Shown in pieces: positions 20,325 through 43,965 of a DNA stretch of 64,000 nucleotides (the first letter of the stretch is position 1; each line of letters starts with the position of its first letter). Origin of the DNA: Bacillus sp. PK3_68 (GTDB lineage Bacteria > Bacillota > Bacilli > Bacillales > Domibacillaceae). The translations under genes were made by a program, and so were the position numbers. The notes under the pieces were generated by a model that saw only the letters and a list, made by a program, of their open reading frames with translations, did no database searches and was not told where the DNA came from. Where the stretch lies: positions 3,262,001 to 3,326,000 of the forward strand of contig NZ_NQYC01000001.1 in NCBI RefSeq assembly GCF_003600835.1, given 5' to 3'.

Positions 20325-21320
20325 ATGTTGACGATTAAGGAAATTGCTGAAATGGCAAAAGTCTCAAGATCAACTGTTTCGCGTGTATTAAATGATTCAG
20401 GCTATGTGAGTGAAGAGGCACGCAATCGTGTTTTAGCAGTAATTGAGGAGACTGGGTACATGCCGAGTCAGCATGCAAAGGCACTTCGGACAAAAAGAAC
20501 GAAGGTAATTGGAGTGATCCTCCCGAAAATTAGCACGGAAACTTCAGGGCGTGTAGTAAACGGACTGAATGAAGTGTTTCAAGAGCAAGGGTATCAAATT
20601 CTTTTAACAACAACAAATCTCGATCCTCAAAAAGAGATTGAATACTTGCGTCTATTAAAGAGCAGACAAGTAGACGGAATTGTTTTAATTGCTACTAATG
20701 TCAATTCAGAGCTAGTGGCAGAGATCAGTCAGCTGAACATTCCATTTGTAGCGATCGGCCAGGACATCCCGCATGCCTCTAGTGTGATATTTGACGATTG
20801 TCATGCAGCCAAAGAAATAGCAAAGCGTCTTATTCTGAAAGGGTATAAAAATATCGCATTTATCGGTGTGGATGAATCAGACCCCTCTGTAGGTATCCAG
20901 CGTAAGCGAGGATTTACAGAGGCACTGAAAGAGCATAAGCTTCCTGTTTATCCAGAATGGATGGAGCAAGCAGATTTTAATATTTCTTCTGGTTTTGAAG
21001 CAATGAAAGAAATTATGGGCAGGTCTACAGAAGATAGCCGCCCTGATGCAGTTTTTGCGGTGACGGACCGGATAGCGATCGGCGCTATGCAATACTTAAA
21101 GGAAGCAGGGTATAGCATCCCTAAAGAAATAGCCATTGCTGGTATGGGAGCTGCTGATATTTCTAAGTATGTCCAGCCTGCTTTAATGACAATAGATTTT
21201 GGAAATGAACGGGCGGGACAGGAGGCAGCTGTTATTCTATTAGAACAAATTGAAAAAAACAGTGAAGGCCAAAAAAAATTAATTTTGAACTATAGAGTAA
21301 TTGAAGGCAATAGTGTATAA
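20325..21320 (+). CDS. scrR: LacI-family repressor of the sucrose operon (ScrR-like)
   Basis: ATG 20325 follows GTGGAGGGTTTGGA and gives 331 residues beginning MLTIKEIAEMAKVSRSTVSR, the classical LacI helix-turn-helix and hinge (VLNDSGYVSEEARNRV). The periplasmic-binding-like sensor domain follows (KVIGVILPKISTETSG..., later PDAVFAVTDRIAIGAM). It lies directly before the sucrose PTS genes, so it is very likely their repressor, probably responding to sucrose-6-phosphate or fructose. A perfect palindrome (21325-21342) just after its stop is a candidate operator. Confidence 0.85.
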   Translation: MLTIKEIAEMAKVSRSTVSRVLNDSGYVSEEARNRVLAVIEETGYMPSQHAKALRTKRTKVIGVILPKISTETSGRVVNGLNEVFQEQGYQILLTTTNLDPQKEIEYLRLLKSRQVDGIVLIATNVNSELVAEISQLNIPFVAIGQDIPHASSVIFDDCHAAKEIAKRLILKGYKNIAFIGVDESDPSVGIQRKRGFTEALKEHKLPVYPEWMEQADFNISSGFEAMKEIMGRSTEDSRPDAVFAVTDRIAIGAMQYLKEAGYSIPKEIAIAGMGAADISKYVQPALMTIDFGNERAGQEAAVILLEQIEKNSEGQKKLILNYRVIEGNSV

Positions 21321-33587: not shown

Positions 33588-33796
33588 ATTCAGTATCCCC
33601 CATCATAAAGATTACTTTTCCGATTATAACACAGTAATGGAACATTTAGAATGTTATGAAAAGTTAATTGCTTTCTTTTGATTTATTTCCTATTCTCTAT
33701 TTGAAATAAGCTATATTTGATGGCATCGTTCGCTTTCTTTTCTGTAAAGGCTTCTATCGGCATAAAAGATTGAATAGTCTACTTATTAAAAAAACA

Positions 33797-33825
33797 TTGA
33801 CACGTCTTGGAGAACGTGGCATAAT
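33797..33825 (+). promoter_or_regulatory. Sigma-A promoter of the mtnX-mtnD-mtnW unit
   Basis: TTGACA (33797-33802) and CATAAT (33820-33825) are separated by 17 bases. The S-box begins about 38 bases downstream of the -10. Confidence 0.88.
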
Positions 33826-33862
33826 CCTAGTGAAGTTATAGGAATATAAAAATACGAAATAA

Positions 33863-33968
33863 ACTCTTATCAAGAGCAGGCGGAGGGATGAGCCCTATGA
33901 AGCCCGGCAACCGGCTTATTTTAAGTACGGTGCTAATTCTTACAGCATAAACGCTGGAAGATAAGAAG
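33863..33968 (+). promoter_or_regulatory. SAM-I (S-box) riboswitch upstream of mtnX
   Basis: The core has all S-box hallmarks: CTTATCAAGAG at the start of P1, GGCGGAGGGATGAGCCC, GAAGCCCGGCAACC, GGTGCTAATTC and the closing GATAAGAAG. P1 pairs 33865-33870 with 33960-33965. SAM binding stabilises P1 and lets the terminator at 33980 form. Without SAM, AGATAAGAAG pairs with the CTTCTTAT of the terminator arm. It therefore turns the salvage genes on when SAM is scarce. Confidence 0.96.
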
Positions 33969-33979
33969 TTGTGTTTATT

Positions 33980-34008
33980 AAAACCTCTTCTTATTGAAGA
34001 GGTTTTTT
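33980..34008 (+). terminator. S-box terminator (first copy)
   Basis: AAACCTCTTC/GAAGAGGTTT with a TTATT loop and a T tract. Its left arm includes the antiterminator-pairing sequence CTTCTTAT. Confidence 0.92.
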
Positions 34009-34072
34009 GTTTGTTACAAAAACATAAATATAAATTTTAGTTGTACAGTAAAAGGAAAGAAGTGGTGGCACC

Positions 34073-34738
34073 TTGAGAAAACCCGTCATATTTTGTGACT
34101 TTGATGGTACAGTGACTAAAAAAGATAACATCATTAGCATTATGAAGCAATTTGCTCCGCCTGAGTGGGAGAAATGGAAAGACGGGGTGCTTTCCCAATC
34201 TGTCAGCATTCAGGAAGGCGTCGGAAACATGTTTGCGCTTCTCCCATCTTCCCTTCGAAAAGACATTGTTGAGTATGTTGTAAATACGGCGCAGATTAGA
34301 GAAGGGTTCGGCGAGTTTGTGCAATATACGAAAAGCCAGGGGATTCCCCTTTATATTGTCAGCGGGGGCATTGACTTTTTTGTAAAACCGATGCTTGAGC
34401 CGTTCGATTCTATTGCTGGACTGTATTGTAATGAAGCAGATTTCAGCGGGGAGAATATTCATATTCGCTGGCCGCACGGTTGTGATCAAGAATGCCCGAA
34501 TCAAAATTGTGGTTGCTGCAAACCAGCCATCATTCGCCATACTGCAAATTCGAATATGTACAGCGTTGTGATTGGTGATTCAGTGACAGACTTACAAGCA
34601 GCAAAAATTGCCGATTCTGTTATTGCTAGAGATTACTTATTGGAAAAGTGCAAAGAACTTTCTATTCCTTTTCAGTCATTTGAAACATTTTATGATTGCA
34701 TTGAAATTTTAGAGAAACTAAAAGTAAACATAAAGTAA
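34073..34738 (+). CDS. mtnX: 2-hydroxy-3-keto-5-methylthiopentenyl-1-phosphate phosphatase
   Basis: TTG start at 34073 behind AGTGGTGG. The 221-residue HAD-superfamily protein has the nucleophile motif FCDFDGTVTKKD (Asp9, Asp11) and a later VIGDSVTDLQAAKIAD metal-binding motif. It has a cysteine cluster (CDQECPNQNCGCCKP) in the cap region. Family length and the next genes identify it as MtnX, which removes phosphate to make the acireductone. It is first in an operon under the S-box, and MtnW, two genes on, makes its substrate. Confidence 0.93.
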   Translation: MRKPVIFCDFDGTVTKKDNIISIMKQFAPPEWEKWKDGVLSQSVSIQEGVGNMFALLPSSLRKDIVEYVVNTAQIREGFGEFVQYTKSQGIPLYIVSGGIDFFVKPMLEPFDSIAGLYCNEADFSGENIHIRWPHGCDQECPNQNCGCCKPAIIRHTANSNMYSVVIGDSVTDLQAAKIADSVIARDYLLEKCKELSIPFQSFETFYDCIEILEKLKVNIK

Positions 34739-34805
34739 GCAGCTGTGCTTTTGACAGACTAATAGATAAATTTGGAATATTTATAAAAAATAAGGAGGGA
34801 TAGTC

Positions 34806-35318
34806 ATGACAACTATCAAAATTCAGGGAACAAATGAAGTGATTGAACAACAAGAAGAGGTAGTCTCCTTTTTGCAGCAGCAGGACGTTATTTATGAGCA
34901 TTGGGACATTTCAAAACTTCCTGCACATTTACAAGAAAAATATATTCTAAGCGATGAAGAGAAACAGGAGATTTTAGATGCTTTTGAGACGGAAATTAAA
35001 GACATCTCCGAAAGACGAGGGTACCAAGCGTGGGATGTGATCTCATTAGCGGACCATACTCCAAATCTAGAGGAGCTATTGAAAAACTTCCAGCGTGAAC
35101 ACCATCATACAGATGATGAAGTCCGGTTTATTGCAAGCGGACACGGTGTTTTTGTTATCCAAGGAAAGGATGGCCGGTTCTTTGAAGTGCATCTGAATCC
35201 AGGAGATCTTATTTCAGTCCCTGAAAGTGTCCGTCATTACTTTACCTTATCTGACGACCGTAAAGTAGTTGCCGTCCGCATTTTCGTAACAGAAGAGGGC
35301 TGGGTGCCAGTCTACTAA
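34806..35318 (+). CDS. mtnD: Acireductone dioxygenase (cupin)
   Basis: The 170-residue cupin carries the metal ligands His99-x-His101-x3-Glu105 in EHHHTDDEVRF and His144 in ESVRHYF. With Fe2+ it converts the acireductone to formate and the keto acid KMTB, the methionine precursor. With Ni2+ it makes CO and methylthiopropionate instead. The ATAAGGAGGGATAGTC site precedes ATG. It lies between mtnX and mtnW, while in B. subtilis it is at the end of the mtnWXBD operon, so the order differs. Confidence 0.94.
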   Translation: MTTIKIQGTNEVIEQQEEVVSFLQQQDVIYEHWDISKLPAHLQEKYILSDEEKQEILDAFETEIKDISERRGYQAWDVISLADHTPNLEELLKNFQREHHHTDDEVRFIASGHGVFVIQGKDGRFFEVHLNPGDLISVPESVRHYFTLSDDRKVVAVRIFVTEEGWVPVY

Positions 35319-35362
35319 AACCTAATGAACAAAGTCACAGAATGACAGAGGAGGACAATTGC

Positions 35363-36556
35363 ATGGGTGTAACAGCTACTTATCTGTTCCCGTCACATTC
35401 TGATCAGGAAAAAAAAGCAGAGCAATATGCTTTAGGCCTCACGGTCGGTTCTTGGACAGATATTCCACATCTTGAGCGGCAGCAATTACAAAAAAATAAA
35501 GGAGAAGTTGTATCAGTAGAAAAAGGAGAGGAAAAGGATACGGTAAAGATTCATTATCCATCCGCCAATTTTTCCGCTGATCTTCCCGCTATTTTAACTA
35601 CCGTATATGGGAAGCTTTCTTTCTTTGAAGGCCATGAGTTAATTGACCTAACATTTGATGATGAACTGCTCTCTCAATTCCCCGGTCCGCGGTTTGGAGT
35701 GAAAGGTGTGAGAGAGCAGTTAAATATATACGATCGCCCGTTATTAATGGCGATTTTTAAGGGAGTCATGGGAAGGGATCTGTCCTTTTTCTCTTCTCAA
35801 TTGGAGGACCTGCTTGCAGGAGGCATTGACCTGATTAAGGACGATGAGATTCTTTTTGACAATGAACTTACACCCTTTGAAAAGAGAATAACAACGGCCA
35901 AAGAAATTATTGGCCGTCATTCCGAGAATACAGGTCAACGTGCTTTATATGCGGTGAATTTATCAGGGAGGTCAAATAGACTTCATGAAAAAGCAGAGCG
36001 GGCACAGGAGTTGGGAGCGAATGCACTGTTGTTTAACGTTCACGCTTATGGATTAGATACGCTACAAACTTTGCGTGAAAACAACAACATTCGTTTGCCA
36101 ATTATGGCTCACTCGGCTTTATCGGGTGTGTTGGCCGGACAGCCTGGTGGCTACTCCTATGCCTTGCTGGTAGGGAAATTGACGCGTATGACAGGCGGGG
36201 ATTTCTCTTTATTTCCAAGCCCGTATGGCAATGTAGCGATCCCGTCAGCTGACGCCTTGGCGATTGGCAAGGCGCTTACGGAAGGAAGCCACTTTGAACA
36301 AACATTTTCTGTGCCTTCAGCCGGCATTCATCCAGGAATGGTGCCGCAGCTGTTAGGGGATTTCGGTAAAGAAAGTTTAATTATTAATGCAGGGGGAGGC
36401 GTATTCGGCCATCCGGATGGCCCGATAAATGGTGCACAAGCATTTCGGGCTGCAATTGATGCAAGTGTAAACGATATCTCATTGTTCGAAGCTGCTGAAA
36501 CATCAGCGCCTCTAAAACGTGCTATTGAAGAATGGGGAGTTATAGCTAATTCCTAG
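35363..36556 (+). CDS. mtnW: 2,3-diketo-5-methylthiopentyl-1-phosphate enolase (RuBisCO-like protein)
   Basis: ATG 35363 is chosen because GAGGAGGACAATTGC lies just before it; the longer frame has no site. The 397-residue protein is a RuBisCO-like protein. The metal-binding KDDE motif is present in GIDLIKDDEILFDNEL (Lys159 would be carbamylated). Other family segments are FPGPRFGVKGVRE and INAGGGVFGHPDGPINGAQA. It enolises the diketo phosphate made by MtnB and supplies MtnX. It does not fix CO2. It is the last gene of the first S-box unit. Confidence 0.94.
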   Translation: MGVTATYLFPSHSDQEKKAEQYALGLTVGSWTDIPHLERQQLQKNKGEVVSVEKGEEKDTVKIHYPSANFSADLPAILTTVYGKLSFFEGHELIDLTFDDELLSQFPGPRFGVKGVREQLNIYDRPLLMAIFKGVMGRDLSFFSSQLEDLLAGGIDLIKDDEILFDNELTPFEKRITTAKEIIGRHSENTGQRALYAVNLSGRSNRLHEKAERAQELGANALLFNVHAYGLDTLQTLRENNNIRLPIMAHSALSGVLAGQPGGYSYALLVGKLTRMTGGDFSLFPSPYGNVAIPSADALAIGKALTEGSHFEQTFSVPSAGIHPGMVPQLLGDFGKESLIINAGGGVFGHPDGPINGAQAFRAAIDASVNDISLFEAAETSAPLKRAIEEWGVIANS

Positions 36557-36595
36557 GTTGCCTTTCCGGTTTTGGAGATACTTTATAAAAAGATC

Positions 36596-36624
36596 TTGAC
36601 AGTTTTTGATGAACGTGACATAAT
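36596..36624 (+). promoter_or_regulatory. Sigma-A promoter of the mtnB-mtnA unit
   Basis: TTGACA (36596-36601) and CATAAT (36619-36624) have a 17-base spacer. The hexamers, spacing and the following TCCTAGT are shared with the promoter at 33797. Confidence 0.88.
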
Positions 36625-36662
36625 CCTAGTAAATTTATGCGAATAATTAATTTAATAATTCT

Positions 36663-36766
36663 ATCTTATCAAGAGCAGGCGGAGGGATGAGCCCTATGAA
36701 GCCCGGCAACCGACTTACCTAAGCACGGTGCTAATTCTCACAGCAGCAATGCTGAAAGATAAGAAG
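36663..36766 (+). promoter_or_regulatory. SAM-I (S-box) riboswitch upstream of mtnB
   Basis: It has the same architecture as the element at 33863. From CTTATCAAGAGCAGGCGGAG through GAAGCCCGGCAACCG the two are practically identical, and they differ mainly in the P3/P4 loops. P1 pairs CTTATC (36665-36670) with GATAAG (36758-36763). The antiterminator GATAAGAAG is exactly complementary to CTTCTTATC in the terminator. Confidence 0.96.
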
Positions 36767-36779
36767 TTGTTTTTTTTTG

Positions 36780-36809
36780 AAAACCTCTTCTTATCGAAGA
36801 GGTTTTTTT
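36780..36809 (+). terminator. S-box terminator (second copy)
   Basis: AAAACCTCTTC/GAAGAGGTTTT with a TTATC loop and a T run, 10 bases after an extra poly-T tract. Confidence 0.92.
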
Positions 36810-36831
36810 GCAGAGAGGAAGTTGATGGAGA

Positions 36832-37464
36832 TTGAGTATATTTATCACTCGTGCTCATGAATTGGCAGATATTAAAGATGAACTAGCGGCACGCGATTGG
36901 TTTATGGGGACCAGCGGAAACCTAGCAATAAAAGTTCAAGATGAGCCGCTGCAATTTCTTGTAACAGCCAGTGGAAAAGATAAACGAAAAAGAACAGCCG
37001 AAGATTTTTTAATCGTTGATAAAGAAGGAAATCCGATTGGTGAAACGAATGTCAAACCATCGGCTGAGACCCTGCTTCATTGTGAAATTTATGGAAGATC
37101 GAATGCCGGATGCAGCCTTCATGTTCATACGGTAGCTAACAATGTGATTTCTGAAATTTATGGTGATGAAGGAAAAGTCGTCTTCAAAGGACAGGAACTG
37201 ATCAAAGCATTTGGCCGCTGGGAGGAAGACGCGGAGTGGGAAATTCCTATTATTTATAACTATGCTCATATCCCGACGCTGGCAGCTGCCATGACTCCAT
37301 TCATAAAGGAAGACAAGGGAGCGGTGCTTATCCGGAACCATGGGATTACTGTCTGGGGAAGAGATGGGTTTGAAGCAAAGAAAGTGCTTGAAGCATGCGA
37401 GTTTCTATTTCAGTATCAGCTCACCCTTCTTCAAGCAAAGGCAAATCTACAGGCGGTCAAATAA
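36832..37464 (+). CDS. mtnB: Methylthioribulose-1-phosphate dehydratase
   Basis: The 210-residue class II aldolase-fold protein has [16 protein letters not shown], the substrate and Zn region [10 protein letters not shown] (His-x-His), and [13 protein letters not shown]. The start is probably TTG 36832, which gives an N-terminus in register with known MtnB; the ribosome binding site (AGAGGAAG or GGAG) is imperfect. It dehydrates MTRu-1-P to the diketo phosphate used by MtnW. It is the first gene of the second S-box unit. Confidence 0.93.
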
Positions 37465-37489
37465 CCGTAAAGAAAGGTGGGGAAAGAAG

Positions 37490-37873
37490 TTGATTAAGAG
37501 AATTGAGCATGCAGGAATCATGGTGAAGAATTTGGAAAAATCAATCGCATTTTATACAGATATAATCGGCTTTCAACTTTTGGGGCGTCTTGACCATCCA
37601 AACGGCCGAATAAAAATTGCCTTTATTGGAACAGAAGGTACGGATGGCACGCAAATTGAGCTGTTGGAAGGTTATAATGATTCGCTGCCGGCCGAAGGAA
37701 AAGTTCATCATCTTGCTTTGAAGGTGGATGGGATTGAAGAAGAGATTGCAAGATTGAAGGAAGCGGGTGTCCGTTTCATTGATGAGGAAATTACAACGCT
37801 GCCGAATGGCTCCCGCTATATGTTCTTTGAAGGGCCGGATGGCGAGTGGCTTGAATTATTCGAAACTAATTAA
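37490..37873 (+). CDS. VOC superfamily (glyoxalase-like) metalloenzyme in the methionine-salvage operon
   Basis: TTG start at 37490 behind AAGGTGGGGAAAGAAG, 25 bases after mtnB; the open frame extends upstream inside mtnB but has no site. The 127-residue single VOC unit has both beta-alpha-beta-beta-beta halves. Metal-ligand candidates are His8 (RIEHAGIMV), Glu in QIELLEGY, His in VHHLALKVDG, and Glu in GEWLELFE. It resembles glyoxalase I and methylmalonyl-CoA epimerases. It is not one of the known steps of the pathway. It might detoxify or epimerise a reactive dicarbonyl intermediate; this is inference from position. Confidence 0.8.
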   Translation: MIKRIEHAGIMVKNLEKSIAFYTDIIGFQLLGRLDHPNGRIKIAFIGTEGTDGTQIELLEGYNDSLPAEGKVHHLALKVDGIEEEIARLKEAGVRFIDEEITTLPNGSRYMFFEGPDGEWLELFETN

Positions 37874-37902
37874 TTTACAGAAAACATCAGGGGGAGTTTA
37901 GG

Positions 37903-39009
37903 ATGAGAAAGATATTTAAGAAACTGGCCGTATCCGGCTTAACTTTAACATTGCTGCTGACGGGCTGTTCAGGGGGCGAACAAGGTGCTTCGTCAAACGA
38001 AAAGAAGCCAGGAAAGATTGAAAATGTACCTGAGAGATTTGCAAATGGTGAAGAAGTAAAGGTAAAGGTCATCCGTAAAATTGGCGGCGATGATCATACA
38101 GCGCAATTTTTAGCAGGCGCAAAAAAAGAGGGGGAGGATCTCGGTTTCAAAGTGGATGTCTTCACAGCAAACGGTGACACAGCGAAGTTCCACGATGCCA
38201 TTGAACAAGCTGCCAATCAGGACTATGACGGAGTAGTTATCTCTCATGGAGATGATGCAGCAACAGTAGATGCTGTGAAAAAGCTAAGAGAGAAAGGCAA
38301 GAGTGTTGTCACCTTTGATTCTGTGGAAGATTTAAAGAGCGTAGACGGTGTGACACTAACTTCTCAAGATGATAAAGCATTGGCCACTTTGAGCTTGGAC
38401 CAATTGGTGAAGGATTTCAATGGCAAAGCAAAAATTGCTTACCTGTGGGTAGACGGTTTCCCGCCAATGGTTCGCCGGAATGCCGTATATGAAGAAACTT
38501 TAAAGAAAAATTCAGGCATTAAAGAGGTAGAAAGATTCGGAGTAGCGGCTGCCGATACATCCGTTCAAACACAAAATGCTGTTCAAGCCATGCTGAAGAA
38601 ATATCCGAAAGGAAAGTTGGATGCCATTTATGCCACATGGGATGCATTCGCCATCGGAGCCGCGCGTGCAATTAAAGAAGCAGGTCGCGATGAAGTGAAA
38701 ATTTATGGAATTGATGTTTCAAATGCCGATTTACAACTCATGCAGGAAAAAGGAAGCTCCTGGAAGTATACAGCCGCAGTAGATCCGGCGCTGATCGGAA
38801 AAATTGATATGAGAATTTTGGCGAAGAAACTTGCAGGAGAAGAAACACCGCAAGAATATGCATTAGATGCCAGTTTAATTTCGCAAAAAGAATTATCTTC
38901 CTCTAAAGAGCCGGTGAATATGGAAAGCTTAAAGAACGTTGTTCCGAACTGGGGAAAATCGGATGAATTTGAAGAAGAGTGGATGAAGACATTGAAAGAA
39001 CATTATTAA
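37903..39009 (+). CDS. Sugar-type ABC transporter substrate-binding lipoprotein (probable methylthioribose binding)
   Basis: The 368-residue protein has a lipoprotein signal with lipobox LLTGC (Cys22). A periplasmic-binding-protein type 1 fold of the ribose/galactose class (Peripla_BP_4) follows: KVKVIRKIGGDDHTAQFLAG, DYDGVVISHGDDAATVDAVK, LDAIYATWDAFAIGAARAIK. It is anchored outside the membrane and hands substrate to the permease. Its place between mtnB and mtnK under an S-box makes 5-methylthioribose the best candidate ligand. It is followed by a weak hairpin, which often allows more binding protein than ATPase to be made. Confidence 0.85.
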   Translation: MRKIFKKLAVSGLTLTLLLTGCSGGEQGASSNEKKPGKIENVPERFANGEEVKVKVIRKIGGDDHTAQFLAGAKKEGEDLGFKVDVFTANGDTAKFHDAIEQAANQDYDGVVISHGDDAATVDAVKKLREKGKSVVTFDSVEDLKSVDGVTLTSQDDKALATLSLDQLVKDFNGKAKIAYLWVDGFPPMVRRNAVYEETLKKNSGIKEVERFGVAAADTSVQTQNAVQAMLKKYPKGKLDAIYATWDAFAIGAARAIKEAGRDEVKIYGIDVSNADLQLMQEKGSSWKYTAAVDPALIGKIDMRILAKKLAGEETPQEYALDASLISQKELSSSKEPVNMESLKNVVPNWGKSDEFEEEWMKTLKEHY

Positions 39010-39018
39010 GAAAAAAGA

Positions 39019-39057
39019 GCATTCGCTTAGTTTTTAGCGGATGCTTCCGTTTTTCTT
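39019..39057 (+). terminator. Intra-operon hairpin after the binding-protein gene
   Basis: GCATTCGCT/AGCGGATGC (G-U tolerant 9-bp stem) with an 8-base loop and a T-rich tail (CCGTTTTTCTT). It is probably a partial terminator or 3'-protecting stem, giving excess binding protein over ATPase. Confidence 0.5.
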
Positions 39058-39092
39058 AATTGCCATACCCATTTCATGAGAAGGGAACGAAC

Positions 39093-40589
39093 ATGATGAT
39101 TGAAATGAAAAACATCTCCATTGATTTCCCAGGGGTGGCGGCTTTGAAGAATGTGGATTTTCATGTGGAAAAAGGAAAAATCCACGCCTTGATCGGTGCC
39201 AATGGAGCGGGAAAATCCACATTGATGAAAGTCCTATCCGGAGCTTACGACCATTATCGGGGCGAAATTTATTTTCATGGGGAAGAAGTGACACTTCGCT
39301 CTCCAAAAGACGCCAAACGATTAGGCGTTCAAATGGTGTATCAAGAAGTTGACACAGCTCTTATTCCTTATCTAACGGTTGGCGAGAATATCATGTTGGA
39401 GCAAATGATTCATCGCATGGGCCGAAAGCAGCTCATCAACTGGAAATCGATCCATAAGCAGGCAGCTGCTATCCTGACCCGTTTGCATGTAGCCATTTCC
39501 ACCTACCAACGAGTCGATGAACTCACACTCGCTGAAAAGCAAATGGTGTTAATCGCCAGAGCGATTTCCGATCAATGTAAATGTTTGGTGCTGGATGAGC
39601 CAACAGCCCCATTAAGCCAGGCAGAGACAGAAGAGTTATTTCGTTTAATCCGTCTATTAAAGCAAGACGGAGTAGCGATCATTTTTATTTCTCATCGCCT
39701 GCCAGAACTGTTTGCTATCTGTGAAGAAATAACTGTCATGAGAAATGGTGAACTTGTGATGAAAGAGGAAACGGCTGTTACTTCTCCTAAACATGTCATT
39801 GAACAAATGCTTGGAAAATCATTAGAAGAGCAATATCCTCCTCATCAGCCAACAACAGGAGAAACCATTCTTGAAGTGAAAGGCCTGTCTGACAATGGCA
39901 TGGTAAAAAACTTGAATATCCAAGTAAAAAGAGGAGAAATTGTTGGAATCGCCGGTCTTGTCGGCGCAGGCAAAACGGAGATCTGCCAGGCGTTGTTTGG
40001 TGCTTCTCCGCAAACATCAGGCGATGTGTTCATCCAAGGAAAGAAAGTGAAAATCACTTCTCCTTCTGATGCAGTCCGGCATGGAATGGTTCTTGTTCCG
40101 GAGGAAAGAAGAAAAGCGGGAATGGTTGTTTCTGAATCTGTAACAACGAATTTAACGGTTTCTAGCATGAAGCGATTCTCCAAGCTTTTTAGCTTAATTG
40201 ATTTTAAGGCAGAAAAAAGAGAAGCTGAAAAAATGGTCCAACGGCTTAGTGTTGTCACTCCATCTATAGAAACAACAATCGGAAATCTATCAGGCGGGAA
40301 CCAGCAAAAGGTGGTCATTGGCAAGTGGCTGATGGGCGACGCCGATGTCTATATTTTCGATGAGCCCACGAAGGGTGTGGATGTTGGAGCGAAGCGGGAG
40401 ATTTTCGGGCTGATTGCCGAGCTGGCGAAGCAAGGAAAAGGGATTATCTACGCTTCAAGTGAACTGGTGGATATTCTTGGAATGACAGATCGGTTATATG
40501 TAGTCTATGACGGAGAAGTGGTCAAGGAAATAGAAACAGGTTCTACAAACGAAGCAGAAATTCTATATTATTCAACAGGAGGAAAGTAG
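39093..40589 (+). CDS. Sugar-type ABC transporter ATP-binding protein (RbsA-like, two ATPase domains)
   Basis: ATG 39093 follows AGAAGGGAACGAAC; the frame opens earlier without a site. The 498-residue protein has two ABC domains. The N-domain has Walker A GANGAGKST and Walker B CLVLDEPTAPLS. The C-domain has GLVGAGKTE, signature LSGGNQQKV and Walker B IFDEPTKGVDVG. As in RbsA, the N-domain signature is degraded (LTLAEKQM). It powers the neighbouring permease. It sits two genes before mtnK, so it is inferred to take up methylthioribose. Confidence 0.88.
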   Translation: MMIEMKNISIDFPGVAALKNVDFHVEKGKIHALIGANGAGKSTLMKVLSGAYDHYRGEIYFHGEEVTLRSPKDAKRLGVQMVYQEVDTALIPYLTVGENIMLEQMIHRMGRKQLINWKSIHKQAAAILTRLHVAISTYQRVDELTLAEKQMVLIARAISDQCKCLVLDEPTAPLSQAETEELFRLIRLLKQDGVAIIFISHRLPELFAICEEITVMRNGELVMKEETAVTSPKHVIEQMLGKSLEEQYPPHQPTTGETILEVKGLSDNGMVKNLNIQVKRGEIVGIAGLVGAGKTEICQALFGASPQTSGDVFIQGKKVKITSPSDAVRHGMVLVPEERRKAGMVVSESVTTNLTVSSMKRFSKLFSLIDFKAEKREAEKMVQRLSVVTPSIETTIGNLSGGNQQKVVIGKWLMGDADVYIFDEPTKGVDVGAKREIFGLIAELAKQGKGIIYASSELVDILGMTDRLYVVYDGEVVKEIETGSTNEAEILYYSTGGK

Positions 40590-41594
40590 ATGGACACTGA
40601 ACAAACCATCGCAGTGAAAACTCAGTCCGTGAAACAGTCTTTTCAATTGTTTGACTGGTTATATAAGTATGGCACGATTGTGACGATCGGGCTTTTGATC
40701 GCCATCTTTACCTGGGCCAACCCAGCCTTTATTGAAGGGGAAAACATTATTAATATCTTGCGGTCGATCTCCATTGTAACGATCATTGCCATTGGTGTGA
40801 CTATCTCTCTGTCGATCAATGGATTTGATCTTTCTGTCGGTTCGACTGCATCTCTGGCGAACGCCATTGTAATTTCAATGTTTGTCTGGTATTCCCAGAA
40901 CATCTTTATCGCATTGATTGCTGTGCTAGCTGCTGCGCTTATCGTGGGAGCATTGAACTCTTTATTGATTGTGAAATTTAAGATTCCTGATATGCTTACG
41001 ACTTTGGCTATGATGTTTATTATTCAAGGGGTAGCCCTCACCTACACAAAAGGGGCAACGATTACACAAAACATGGTCATGCCAGATGGCACATTCGCCG
41101 CAGGAGCGATCAGCCCGTTATTTGAAAAAGCAGGGCAGGTGCCTTGGATTATCATCGTTATGGTCCTTGCTGTTGTTCTTGTACACATCTTTTTATCTTA
41201 CACAAAGCATGGAAGATACATGTATATGATCGGCGGCAACCAAGAGGCGGCCAGATTATCAGGGATACCGGTTAATAAGTACAAAATGATTGCTTACTTG
41301 CTTTCCGCTGTTTGTGCAGCCATTGGAGGGACGGTGCTTGCAGCCCGAGTGATGACTGCGGAAATTAATGCAGGTGCTCCATATTTAATGGATGCTGTGG
41401 CTGCCGCTTTTATTGGATTTGCTGTATTCGGGGCCGGCAAGCCGAATGCAATTGGCACATTTATTGGAGCTGTGCTGATTGGAATTTTGCAAAATGGGCT
41501 TGTGATGATGTCTGTTCCATATTATGCGATGGACATTGTTAAGGGAGCCGTTTTGGCTTTTGCATTAGGGCTGACTTACTATAAGCAGAGATAA
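40590..41594 (+). CDS. Sugar-type ABC transporter permease (RbsC-like)
   Basis: The 334-residue protein has eight to ten hydrophobic segments and the BPD_transp_2 pattern: TISLSINGFDLSVGSTASLA, GGNQEAARLSGIPVNKYKMI (the ATPase-contact loop), and AAAFIGFAVFGAGKPNAIGT. ATG 40590 starts immediately after the ATPase stop behind AGGAGGAAAG. Its stop is followed within 15 bases by the TTG start of mtnK. It forms the membrane channel of the inferred methylthioribose importer. Confidence 0.88.
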   Translation: MDTEQTIAVKTQSVKQSFQLFDWLYKYGTIVTIGLLIAIFTWANPAFIEGENIINILRSISIVTIIAIGVTISLSINGFDLSVGSTASLANAIVISMFVWYSQNIFIALIAVLAAALIVGALNSLLIVKFKIPDMLTTLAMMFIIQGVALTYTKGATITQNMVMPDGTFAAGAISPLFEKAGQVPWIIIVMVLAVVLVHIFLSYTKHGRYMYMIGGNQEAARLSGIPVNKYKMIAYLLSAVCAAIGGTVLAARVMTAEINAGAPYLMDAVAAAFIGFAVFGAGKPNAIGTFIGAVLIGILQNGLVMMSVPYYAMDIVKGAVLAFALGLTYYKQR

Positions 41595-41608
41595 TGGAGG
41601 GGACTTAT

Positions 41609-42892
41609 TTGAAAGATTTTACTTCAGCTTATTTTACGATGAATGAAGCAGATGCAGTAGAATATGCGCAAAAAAGATTAGATATTTTTGCTGAGGCTGC
41701 CGATTTGGAATGCCGTGAAATCGGGGATGGCAATTTGAATTATGTCTTTAAGGTCGTTGACCGTCGAAGCGGCCAGTCCATCATTATTAAGCAGGCAGGA
41801 CCAGTAGCTCGTATTTCTGATGCCTTTAAGGTTTCTCCGGACCGCAATCGAATTGAAAGTGAAATATTGGCGCTGCAAGGCGAATTGGCTCCCGGCTTTG
41901 TGCCAAAAGTTTATTCCTATGATCCTATTATGAACTGCTGTGTGATGGATGATTTATCTGATCATGAAATCATGCGTTCCGCTCTTTTAAAGCATAAAAA
42001 ATTCCCGTTATTCGCTGATCATATTACGACATTTCTTGCCCGTACCTTGCTGCTTACCTCAGATGTCGTCATGGGACATAAAGAAAAGAAGCAGAGGGTA
42101 CAGCAGTTTACAAACCCTGAACTTTGTGAAATTAGCGAAGATTTGGTTTATACAGAGCCATTTTATGACTGTGAGCAAAACGATGTATTTGAGGGAACGA
42201 AGGAATTTGCCCGTGAAGTGATTTGGAATGATGAAACGCTTAAGCTGGAGACAGCAAAACTAAAGTTTGATTTTATGACAAAGGCCCAATCGCTTCTTCA
42301 TGGCGACCTTCATACCGGTTCGATTTTTATTAAAGAAGATTCTACGAAAATGATTGATCCTGAGTTTGCTTTTTATGGGCCGGCTGGCTATGATATCGGG
42401 AATGTAGTAGCAAACCTTATCTTTGCCTATATTCATGCGAGCTATACAATAGAAGAAACAGAAGAAAGAAACGATTACCTGCAATATTTAGAAGAAACAA
42501 TTATTCAAGTGATTGAGCTGTTTGCAGAGAAGTTTATCCAGTTGTGGGATGAGACAGTGACAGAGCAGACAGCAACTCTACCAAGCTTTAAAGAGTGGTA
42601 TTTGGATTCTATTCTTGAAGATACCGCTGCGGTTGCTGGACTTGAACTATGCCGGAGAGTAATCGGTATTGCTCACGTGAAGGATTTGACATCGATTTCT
42701 TATGCAGAAGACCGGGCAACAGCAGAGAAAATTTGCTTAACGGCCGGAAAAGCATTTATCCTTCAGCGAGCAGGTATTCGGGCAGGCACTGATTTTGTGC
42801 AGGTACTGCGCCAGAGTGTAAATCAGTTTAGTAAAGGGGCAATCAGCGATGACAACACCAGTAGCAGCCATTCAATCAGTCCGGTTAGATGA
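41609..42892 (+). CDS. mtnK: 5-methylthioribose kinase
   Basis: TTG 41609 is chosen because GGAGGGG lies 7 bases before it; an ATG at 41594 touches the permease stop and has no site. The 427-residue APH-fold kinase has EIGDGNLNYVFKVVD (nucleotide loop), IIKQAGP, the catalytic loop LLHGDLHTGSIF and the metal-binding DPEFAFYGPAGYDIGN. It phosphorylates methylthioribose at C1. Its 3' end overlaps mtnA by 44 bases. Coupling of importer, kinase and isomerase argues for a common substrate. Confidence 0.94.
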   Translation: MKDFTSAYFTMNEADAVEYAQKRLDIFAEAADLECREIGDGNLNYVFKVVDRRSGQSIIIKQAGPVARISDAFKVSPDRNRIESEILALQGELAPGFVPKVYSYDPIMNCCVMDDLSDHEIMRSALLKHKKFPLFADHITTFLARTLLLTSDVVMGHKEKKQRVQQFTNPELCEISEDLVYTEPFYDCEQNDVFEGTKEFAREVIWNDETLKLETAKLKFDFMTKAQSLLHGDLHTGSIFIKEDSTKMIDPEFAFYGPAGYDIGNVVANLIFAYIHASYTIEETEERNDYLQYLEETIIQVIELFAEKFIQLWDETVTEQTATLPSFKEWYLDSILEDTAAVAGLELCRRVIGIAHVKDLTSISYAEDRATAEKICLTAGKAFILQRAGIRAGTDFVQVLRQSVNQFSKGAISDDNTSSSHSISPVR

Positions 42893-43916
42893 TGATAACG
42901 ATGCTCTTGTTCTTCTTGACCAGACGTTGCTGCCAAATGAAAAGGTTTTTCTTCAGCTTTCAAAGGTAGAAGAGATTTGGGATGCAATCTATCATTTAAA
43001 AGTGAGAGGAGCACCTGCTATCGGCATTGCAGCAGCTTATGGTGTTTATTTGGGCGTAAAGCGATTAGAAGCAGTAACCTTTACCGAGCTGGCAACTGAA
43101 TTTGAAAAAGTAAAAAAGTATCTGGAATCCTCCCGTCCAACAGCTGTCAACTTGTTTTGGGCCTTACAGCGGATGGAAGACCGCTTGCACATTGAAGCAG
43201 ATAAGGATGTAGCCGTTATTAAGAGGGCGTTGAGAGACGAAGCCGAAACGATCCGTGAGGAAGATGAACAGGTGTGCTTGGCCATCGGCGAACATGCGCT
43301 TTCGTTATTAGAACCGGGATGGGGGCTTCTCACTCATTGTAATGCAGGCACGATTGCAACAGCTAAATATGGAACGGCTTTGGCGCCTATCTATTTGGGG
43401 CAGGAACGGGAGTACAATTTCAGCGTATATGCGGATGAAACAAGACCGCTTCTCCAGGGGGCCCGCTTAACTGCATGGGAACTACAGCAAGCTGGAGTAG
43501 ATGTCACGTTAATTTGTGATAACATGGCTTCTCTCGTTATGAAAGAGGGCAAGGTGCAAGCGGTGTTAGTCGGCTGTGACCGGGTGGCTGCCAATGGGGA
43601 CGCAGCTAACAAAATTGGCACATCAGGATTAGCGGTGCTGGCCAAGCATTATGGCATTCCGTTTTATGTATGTGCTCCGCTGTCTACAGTGGATTTAAAA
43701 TGTGCATCAGGCGATGATATTCCAATTGAACTTAGAAAAGCAGAAGAAGTGAGTGCTCAATGGTATGAAAAACCAATGGCCCCGGAAAATGTGAAAGTGT
43801 ACAATCCGGCTTTTGATGTTACTGATCATGAATTGATTACTGCCATTGTTACAGAAAAAGGCATTGCTTACGCACCTTTTGAAAAAAGTTTAGCTGAATT
43901 GATAGAGAAAGAATAA
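42849..43916 (+). CDS. mtnA: Methylthioribose-1-phosphate isomerase
   Basis: The 355-residue protein belongs to the eIF2B-like isomerase family. It has KVRGAPAIGIAAAYGV, the active-site Cys164 in LTHCNAGTIATAKYGTAL, and the catalytic Asp in VGCDRVAANGDAANKIG. It converts MTR-1-P to MTRu-1-P, the substrate of MtnB encoded at the start of the same unit. It overlaps mtnK by 44 bases and ends at a strong terminator. Confidence 0.95.
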   Translation: MTTPVAAIQSVRLDDDNDALVLLDQTLLPNEKVFLQLSKVEEIWDAIYHLKVRGAPAIGIAAAYGVYLGVKRLEAVTFTELATEFEKVKKYLESSRPTAVNLFWALQRMEDRLHIEADKDVAVIKRALRDEAETIREEDEQVCLAIGEHALSLLEPGWGLLTHCNAGTIATAKYGTALAPIYLGQEREYNFSVYADETRPLLQGARLTAWELQQAGVDVTLICDNMASLVMKEGKVQAVLVGCDRVAANGDAANKIGTSGLAVLAKHYGIPFYVCAPLSTVDLKCASGDDIPIELRKAEEVSAQWYEKPMAPENVKVYNPAFDVTDHELITAIVTEKGIAYAPFEKSLAELIEKE

Positions 43917-43921
43917 TAAGC

Positions 43922-43965
43922 AGCAGGTCAAAGGCTTAATTACAGCCTTTAGACCTGCTTTTTTA
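43922..43965 (+). terminator. Terminator of the methionine-salvage operon
   Basis: An extended stem (GCAGGTC...GACCTGC, with inner AAGGCT/AGCCTT) is followed by TTTTTT. Confidence 0.9.

Follow-up and report, generated by a model that had tools for sequence, protein, structure and literature searches.

Which sugar enters the cell through a ribose-type ATP-binding cassette (ABC) importer encoded among methionine salvage genes? The question is raised by an operon of Bacillus sp. PK3_68 (contig NZ_NQYC01000001.1) that spans positions 36596 to about 43964 of the 64,000-nucleotide stretch analysed here (the window, in whose positions all coordinates are given), with all of its genes on the + strand. 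A promoter-like site and a S-adenosylmethionine (SAM)-binding S-box riboswitch are followed by mtnB, a VOC gene, the genes for the importer's binding protein, ATPase and permease, and finally mtnK and mtnA. An earlier sequence-only reading had proposed this gene set and order, a single promoter and SAM riboswitch ahead of mtnB, a 44-base overlap of mtnK and mtnA (42849-42892), and an importer for methylthioribose (MTR); every named gene was recovered on the + strand with family-model support, and the promoter-like site, riboswitch and overlap were likewise borne out. Taken together, we regard the operon with high confidence as a SAM-sensing unit for MTR scavenging and salvage, whose importer, judging from homology, gene linkage and binding pocket, very probably brings in MTR. 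Its features are as follows.

36596..36624, + strand: promoter-like site, TTGACA-17-CATAAT, 11/12, with TG before the second hexamer
36663..36765, + strand: aptamer of the second of two SAM (S-box) riboswitches, RF00162 78.9 bits (gathering 44.4)
36758..36810, + strand: expression platform of this S-box, with arms at 36758-36766 and 36787-36795 forming the antiterminator and a terminator stem at about 36780-36806 followed by a T run
36832..37464, + strand: mtnB, methylthioribulose-1-phosphate dehydratase, NF005244 343 bits (cut-off 281)
37490..37873, + strand: VOC/glyoxalase-fold protein, PF00903 78.8 bits, short of the cut-off for each of the 20 NCBIfam families among the matches listed
37903..39009, + strand: lipoprotein solute-binding protein of the importer (MtrB-like), PF13407 (Peripla_BP_4) 139 bits, 5ulb 353.5 bits, 4ry8 182.5 bits
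39017..39046, + strand: hairpin with a T-rich tail between the binding-protein and ATPase genes, 11 pairs, -21.6 kcal/mol, z -5.42
39096..40589 (alternative start 39093), + strand: double ATPase of the importer (MtrA-like), two ABC_tran stretches, under the cut-off of every NCBIfam family among the best 25 of 190
40590..41594, + strand: permease of the importer (MtrC-like), BPD_transp_2 145.3 bits, RbsC model 189.4 against a cut-off of 398
41609..42892 (longest open reading frame from 41594), + strand: mtnK, methylthioribose kinase, TIGR01767 450 bits (cut-off 275)
42849..43916, + strand: mtnA, methylthioribose-1-phosphate isomerase, NF004326 467.8 bits (cut-off 271)
43922..43964, + strand: terminator-like hairpin and T run at the operon end, -22.8 kcal/mol, z -5.99

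The closest solved structures to the binding protein are a Yersinia binding protein (5ulb, 49% identity) and 4ry8 (33% identity), which also rank first and second by entry in the fold search. The latter is Thermotoga lettingae TLET_1677, titled a 5-methylthioribose transporter binding protein and the best solved relative named for a ligand; the homology extends across the full length of the protein. To compare pockets, we aligned 53 members of the binding-protein family (L086 and L087 excluded) with 4 proteins of RbsB type from the genus, at columns presumed to correspond to the ribose contacts of E. coli RbsB. D139, R192 and D271 are common to the family and RbsB, while the remaining contacts differ, with R replaced by S140, N by W246 and Q by V293. 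W246 is present in 53/53 family members and is N in the RbsB set, the S140 column is never R in the family, and the V293 column holds V or T where RbsB has Q. In the separate alignment behind its 182.5-bit score, inspected by eye, 4ry8 has residues identical to D139, R192, W246 and D271, and T in the V293 column.

The co-occurrence of the binding protein with MtnK, to which the sequence-only reading had looked for support, proved near-total. Across 200 genomes from the class, including the host's own, we counted binding proteins at E<=1e-40 (no more than 10 candidates being scored in each genome) and MtnK above its cut-off, and found the former in 69 genomes and the latter in 99. Both were present in 68, the binding protein alone in 1, MtnK alone in 31 and neither in 100, such that MtnK accompanied 68/69 genomes with the binding protein compared with 31/131 genomes without it. 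Among the 70 binding-protein matches, 39 lay within 6 kb of mtnK, 13 farther away on the same contig and 17 on another contig, with 1 in a genome without MtnK.

S-boxes were surveyed at these importers as well. Our context set comprised 54 loci (L046-L099), assigned by tblastn as salvage-linked, aldolase-linked or neither, and 50 of them (all but L046, L047, L048 and L054) plus the window were scanned with Rfam. An S-box preceded the importer unit in 16 of the 17 salvage-linked loci scanned, window included, the exception (L086) being cut by a contig end, and in 0/11 aldolase-linked loci, two of which (L073, L075) have short upstream sequence; in L075 an S-box lies downstream of the cluster. 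The Fisher p for this difference is 6e-7, computed on related sequences. The other 23 loci, in which no aldolase and no further salvage genes were found, have an S-box before the importer in 16 cases; mtnK lies near the importer in 3 of the 23 (L053, L064, L068), and of the 20 remaining, 15 have an S-box. The MTR proposal of the sequence-only reading thus gains support from the title of 4ry8, from MtnK co-occurrence and from the S-boxes of these unclassed loci. In L053, two tandem SAM riboswitches (L053:8909-9203) precede an importer with a divergent mtnK.

Several observations weigh against a simple assignment to MTR. The co-occurrence p of 9e-28 is inflated, since the genomes in the count are related rather than independent, and 7 of the 23 unclassed loci have no S-box (L061, L062, L064, L065, L068 and the enterobacterial L097 and L098). 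That 4ry8 was solved with MTR bound is a presumption, and a full-text literature search for 4RY8 found no paper. Moreover, the first pocket loop, D63-D64-H65-T66, agrees in the 18 nearest members and in 5 other aldolase-linked ones, whereas, of the 28 non-enterobacterial members that remain, 26 have F in the H65 column, and 4ry8 has FF in place of H65-T66; because of this departure, ligand details may differ from 4ry8 and from most other Bacilli members. Finally, beyond the small clade of the window protein, its closest relatives include importers encoded next to aldolase and bacterial microcompartment (BMC) genes, and for these relatives 5-deoxyribose is at least as likely a ligand.

In the likeliest alternative, which we consider about evenly poised and which is compatible with MTR import, the importer would serve 5-deoxypentoses broadly, MTR and 5-deoxyribose among them, with only MTR fully used in this host because no aldolase of the dihydroxyacetone phosphate (DHAP) shunt was found. 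Six close relatives (L069, L090, L091, L094, L095 and L096; 64-73% identity) lie in blocks that encode binding protein, ATPase, permease, MtnK, MtnA and an aldolase, and have the same residues as the window protein in the key columns of the pocket; the more distant aldolase-linked L072-L075 and L077 do so too, except for T in place of S140 and L in place of M189. DrdK and the E. coli DHAP-shunt enzymes are published as active on both sugars (PMC6079011 and PMC12632272). On the other hand, S-box control suits sulfur rather than carbon, and a PF00596 search of the host genome for class II aldolases of the DrdA/Ald2 kind gave one match, MtnB, so that imported 5-deoxyribose would lack the known class II aldolase route here.

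We think it very unlikely that the importer takes the nucleoside methylthioadenosine (MTA) or autoinducer-2 instead of MTR: MTA is the precursor of MTR, and LsrB-type proteins are distant relatives, but, among solved relatives named for a ligand, the best is an MTR protein, and the LsrB model scores 40.4 bits against a cut-off of 384. Least likely of all is a ribose importer lying in the operon by chance, which we set aside on family cut-offs, pocket columns and a separate RbsB: fold and transporter class are those of RbsABC, and ribose and allose proteins appear in the Foldseek and NCBIfam listings, but the scores fall far under the cut-offs (RbsB 49.8/337, RbsA 486.3/745, RbsC 189.4/398), MtnK co-occurrence argues against it, and another protein of the genome passes the RbsB cut-off (365.3/337), keeps the residues that the operon protein lacks and has beside it an RbsC-like permease just under its own cut-off (387.4/398).

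The kinase and isomerase trees give the operon the look of a mosaic. In each, the window's enzyme shares a clade with L068 and all 11 aldolase-linked rows (support 100/100 for MtnK and 100/99 for MtnA), separate from the other 11 salvage-linked rows, in a grouping that was chosen for testing after a quick tree had been viewed. A single group of all 16 salvage rows was rejected by the approximately unbiased test for both MtnK (p-AU 3e-33) and MtnA (p-AU 0.01). These careful trees omit L063 and L064 (long branches) and the duplicates L086 and L087, which come from the same genomes as L046 and L047 and were also omitted from the binding-protein tree; in the quick kinase tree, the salvage-linked L063 fell among the aldolase-linked rows. 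In the isomerase tree, rooted at the midpoint, the window clade branches from within the aldolase-linked rows, which it does not in the kinase tree. Gene order divides the loci similarly, with the importer preceding mtnK-mtnA in 11/11 aldolase-linked loci, the window, L046, L047, L066 and L067, and the opposite order, mtnK-mtnA first, in the other 12 salvage-linked loci with a complete set of the five genes. The binding-protein tree is mixed in its labels, requiring 16 context changes (minimum possible 3, shuffled mean 28.3) and placing the salvage-linked L063 and L078 in its aldolase-linked half, which argues that importer and kinase have not always travelled together.

Together, these data raise the possibility, to which we give slightly less than even weight, that importer, mtnK and mtnA form a portable cassette for scavenging 5-deoxypentoses, joined to an aldolase and carbon use in some Bacillaceae and Paenibacillus and to S-boxes and sulfur in the window's clade, with an importer and kinase that accept both MTR and 5-deoxyribose. 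Under such a scheme, the aldolase route would include an aldehyde dehydrogenase and sometimes a microcompartment, and the window's block would stand where other salvage-linked Bacilli have mtnK-mtnA-importer. As one cassette seems to be wired to either carbon use or sulfur salvage, 5-deoxyribose may be a second substrate. This apparent exchange may be the new part of the system, and the one most worth following.

Within the six close aldolase blocks, an aldehyde dehydrogenase is encoded in four (L069, L090, L091, L096) and BMC shell genes in three (L069, L090, L091); by Pfam, the products in L069 include aldolase, aldehyde dehydrogenase, BMC, PduL-type and DeoR-type proteins. The three clusters that join mtnK-mtnA, a class II aldolase, an aldehyde dehydrogenase and BMC shell genes lie at L069:7107-14013, L090:13724-20953 and L091:12423-19784, with a PduL-type gene in L069 and L091. 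From their gene content, a microcompartment for the breakdown of a 5-deoxypentose (MTR or 5-deoxyribose) is possible. A literature search that combined microcompartments with MTR or 5-deoxyribose found no paper beyond a remark on Acetobacterium woodii, which mentions a methylthioribose kinase gene adjoining a BMC cluster, with no relation between the two.

In the host itself, the route for MTR appears to be in place. A genome-wide search gave a single MtnK match, in the operon, and MtnN is encoded elsewhere (350.4 bits), such that MtnK, MtnA, MtnB, MtnW, MtnX and MtnD as well as MtnN are all encoded; by these family assignments, MTR has a predicted route as far as the product of MtnD. The salvage route extends upstream of the operon, since another S-box heads mtnX-mtnD-mtnW (34073-36556):

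33797..33825, + strand: promoter-like site of the mtnXDW unit, TTGACA-17-CATAAT, 11/12, with TG before the second hexamer
33864..33967, + strand: first SAM (S-box) riboswitch, RF00162 81.4 bits
33980-34006, + strand: terminator-like hairpin 3' of the first S-box, from the consensus scan
34073..34738, + strand: mtnX, 2-hydroxy-3-keto-5-methylthiopentenyl-1-phosphate (HK-MTPenyl-1-P) phosphatase, NF007103 337.5 bits (cut-off 292)
34806..35318, + strand: mtnD, acireductone dioxygenase, PF03079 145.4 bits, no NCBIfam match at E 0.001
35342..36556, + strand: mtnW, 2,3-diketo-5-methylthiopentyl-1-phosphate (DK-MTP-1-P) enolase (RuBisCO-like), NF007095 534.4 bits (cut-off 409)

Where they align, the two leaders (33780-34010 and 36579-36815, each promoter, S-box and terminator) average 84% identity per column, which suggests that they are paralogous, as by duplication of a regulatory leader. 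In the second, the antiterminator arms are exact 9-base complements that compete with P1 and the terminator stem: the 3' P1 strand GATAAGAAG (36758) exactly complements CTTCTTATC (36787) within the stem. With RF00162 above gathering and this platform both present, the second leader is predicted to make the usual S-box choice between antiterminator and terminator. Our consensus scan for terminators, in which T residues within the stem do not count, listed the hairpin of the first leader, and neither the terminator of the second leader nor the operon-end hairpin. The operon's promoter-like site is among the two best of 18 in the region, a number that matches shuffled sequence (18 vs 20.1). The hairpin at 39017-39046 may raise binding-protein mRNA relative to that of the membrane components, and the TTG at 41609, preceded by GGAGGGG, may be the start of mtnK instead of the ATG at 41594; the relative in L069 starts with MKDFT.

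S-box leaders permit transcription when SAM is scarce, and the enzymes of methionine salvage act in a known order. On the first precedent, low SAM would let transcription pass the S-box leader of the operon. The lipid-anchored binding protein would capture external MTR, and the ATPase and permease would import it. MtnK would then phosphorylate MTR and MtnA isomerise the product, after which MtnB, MtnW, MtnX and MtnD, drawn from the two S-box units, would lead to the keto acid of methionine. MtnN would supply internal MTR to the same route.

The VOC gene is probably a passenger in the operon. A match (E<=1e-25) was found in 7 of 21 genomes (the host's own and 20 relatives), and it lies between mtnB and the importer, beside mtnB, only in the host's genome and in G003 among the six inspected (all but G214). 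In G203, G206, G207 and G209, no mtn or importer match lies in the 16 kb examined, save one weak ABC ATPase match in one of them, and B. badius (G002) has no VOC match, nor any VOC gene between mtnB and the importer. A role in salvage was set aside; outside the host and G003, the match lies mostly away from mtn genes. Against a passenger, VOC homologues were found in L065 (59%) and L071 (51%), roughly 0.6 kb from a second, divergent importer and roughly 5 kb from the importer, respectively. Elsewhere in the window, at about 20508-21158 (G000:C1:3282508-3283158), lies another sugar-binding-protein-like gene (PF13407 57.2 bits).

According to PMC3228920, MTR is excreted by E. coli, in which salvage is lacking, and perhaps by further species in the same position; a dedicated SAM-controlled importer would therefore make MTR a sulfur source shared between species. 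The comparison also places one transporter family under two control settings, sulfur through the S-box and probably carbon through the aldolase (with a DeoR-type regulator and BMC genes in L069), so that its substrate range is directly testable with a few purified binding proteins.

Among known systems, RbsABC resembles the importer in transporter class and fold and differs in pocket residues and in family scores, which fall under the cut-offs. YfnA of B. subtilis, presumably not an ABC protein, shares the substrate and is a single protein as opposed to three components. MTR influx in that species has been experimentally assigned to YfnA, renamed MtrA, according to PMC5743806. TLET_1677 (4ry8) differs through its 33% identity and its FF at H65-T66. 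The DrdK-DrdI-DrdA clusters of the DHAP shunt, as described in PMC6079011, likewise have an mtnK-type kinase, an mtnA-type isomerase and in some cases sugar transporters, and the window's kinase and isomerase group with aldolase-linked ones; the window's genome, however, lacks a class II aldolase beyond MtnB and has the full salvage set and S-boxes. The sequence-only reading had seen here the window's best candidate for an under-described system, which holds only in part, as the transporter kind was already predicted as mtrACB and a relative's structure is named for MTR. In PMC3228920 (2011), MtrACB is a probable transporter of MTR, still uncharacterised at that time, which was recognised first in B. 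cereus, where it has an S-box; the prediction is credited there to a 2004 NAR paper. The window's importer is a further example of this known kind and not a new one. Like MtrACB, it has three components, a homologous binding protein (49% to 5ulb, 47-48% to that of Erwinia/Pantoea L097/L098) and a tie to methionine salvage and to SAM or methionine control; it differs in that L097 and L098 have the order ATPase-permease-binding protein, whereas in the window the binding protein comes first and mtnK-mtnA follow downstream, and in that the gammaproteobacterial systems of PMC3228920 have metboxes where the window has an S-box.

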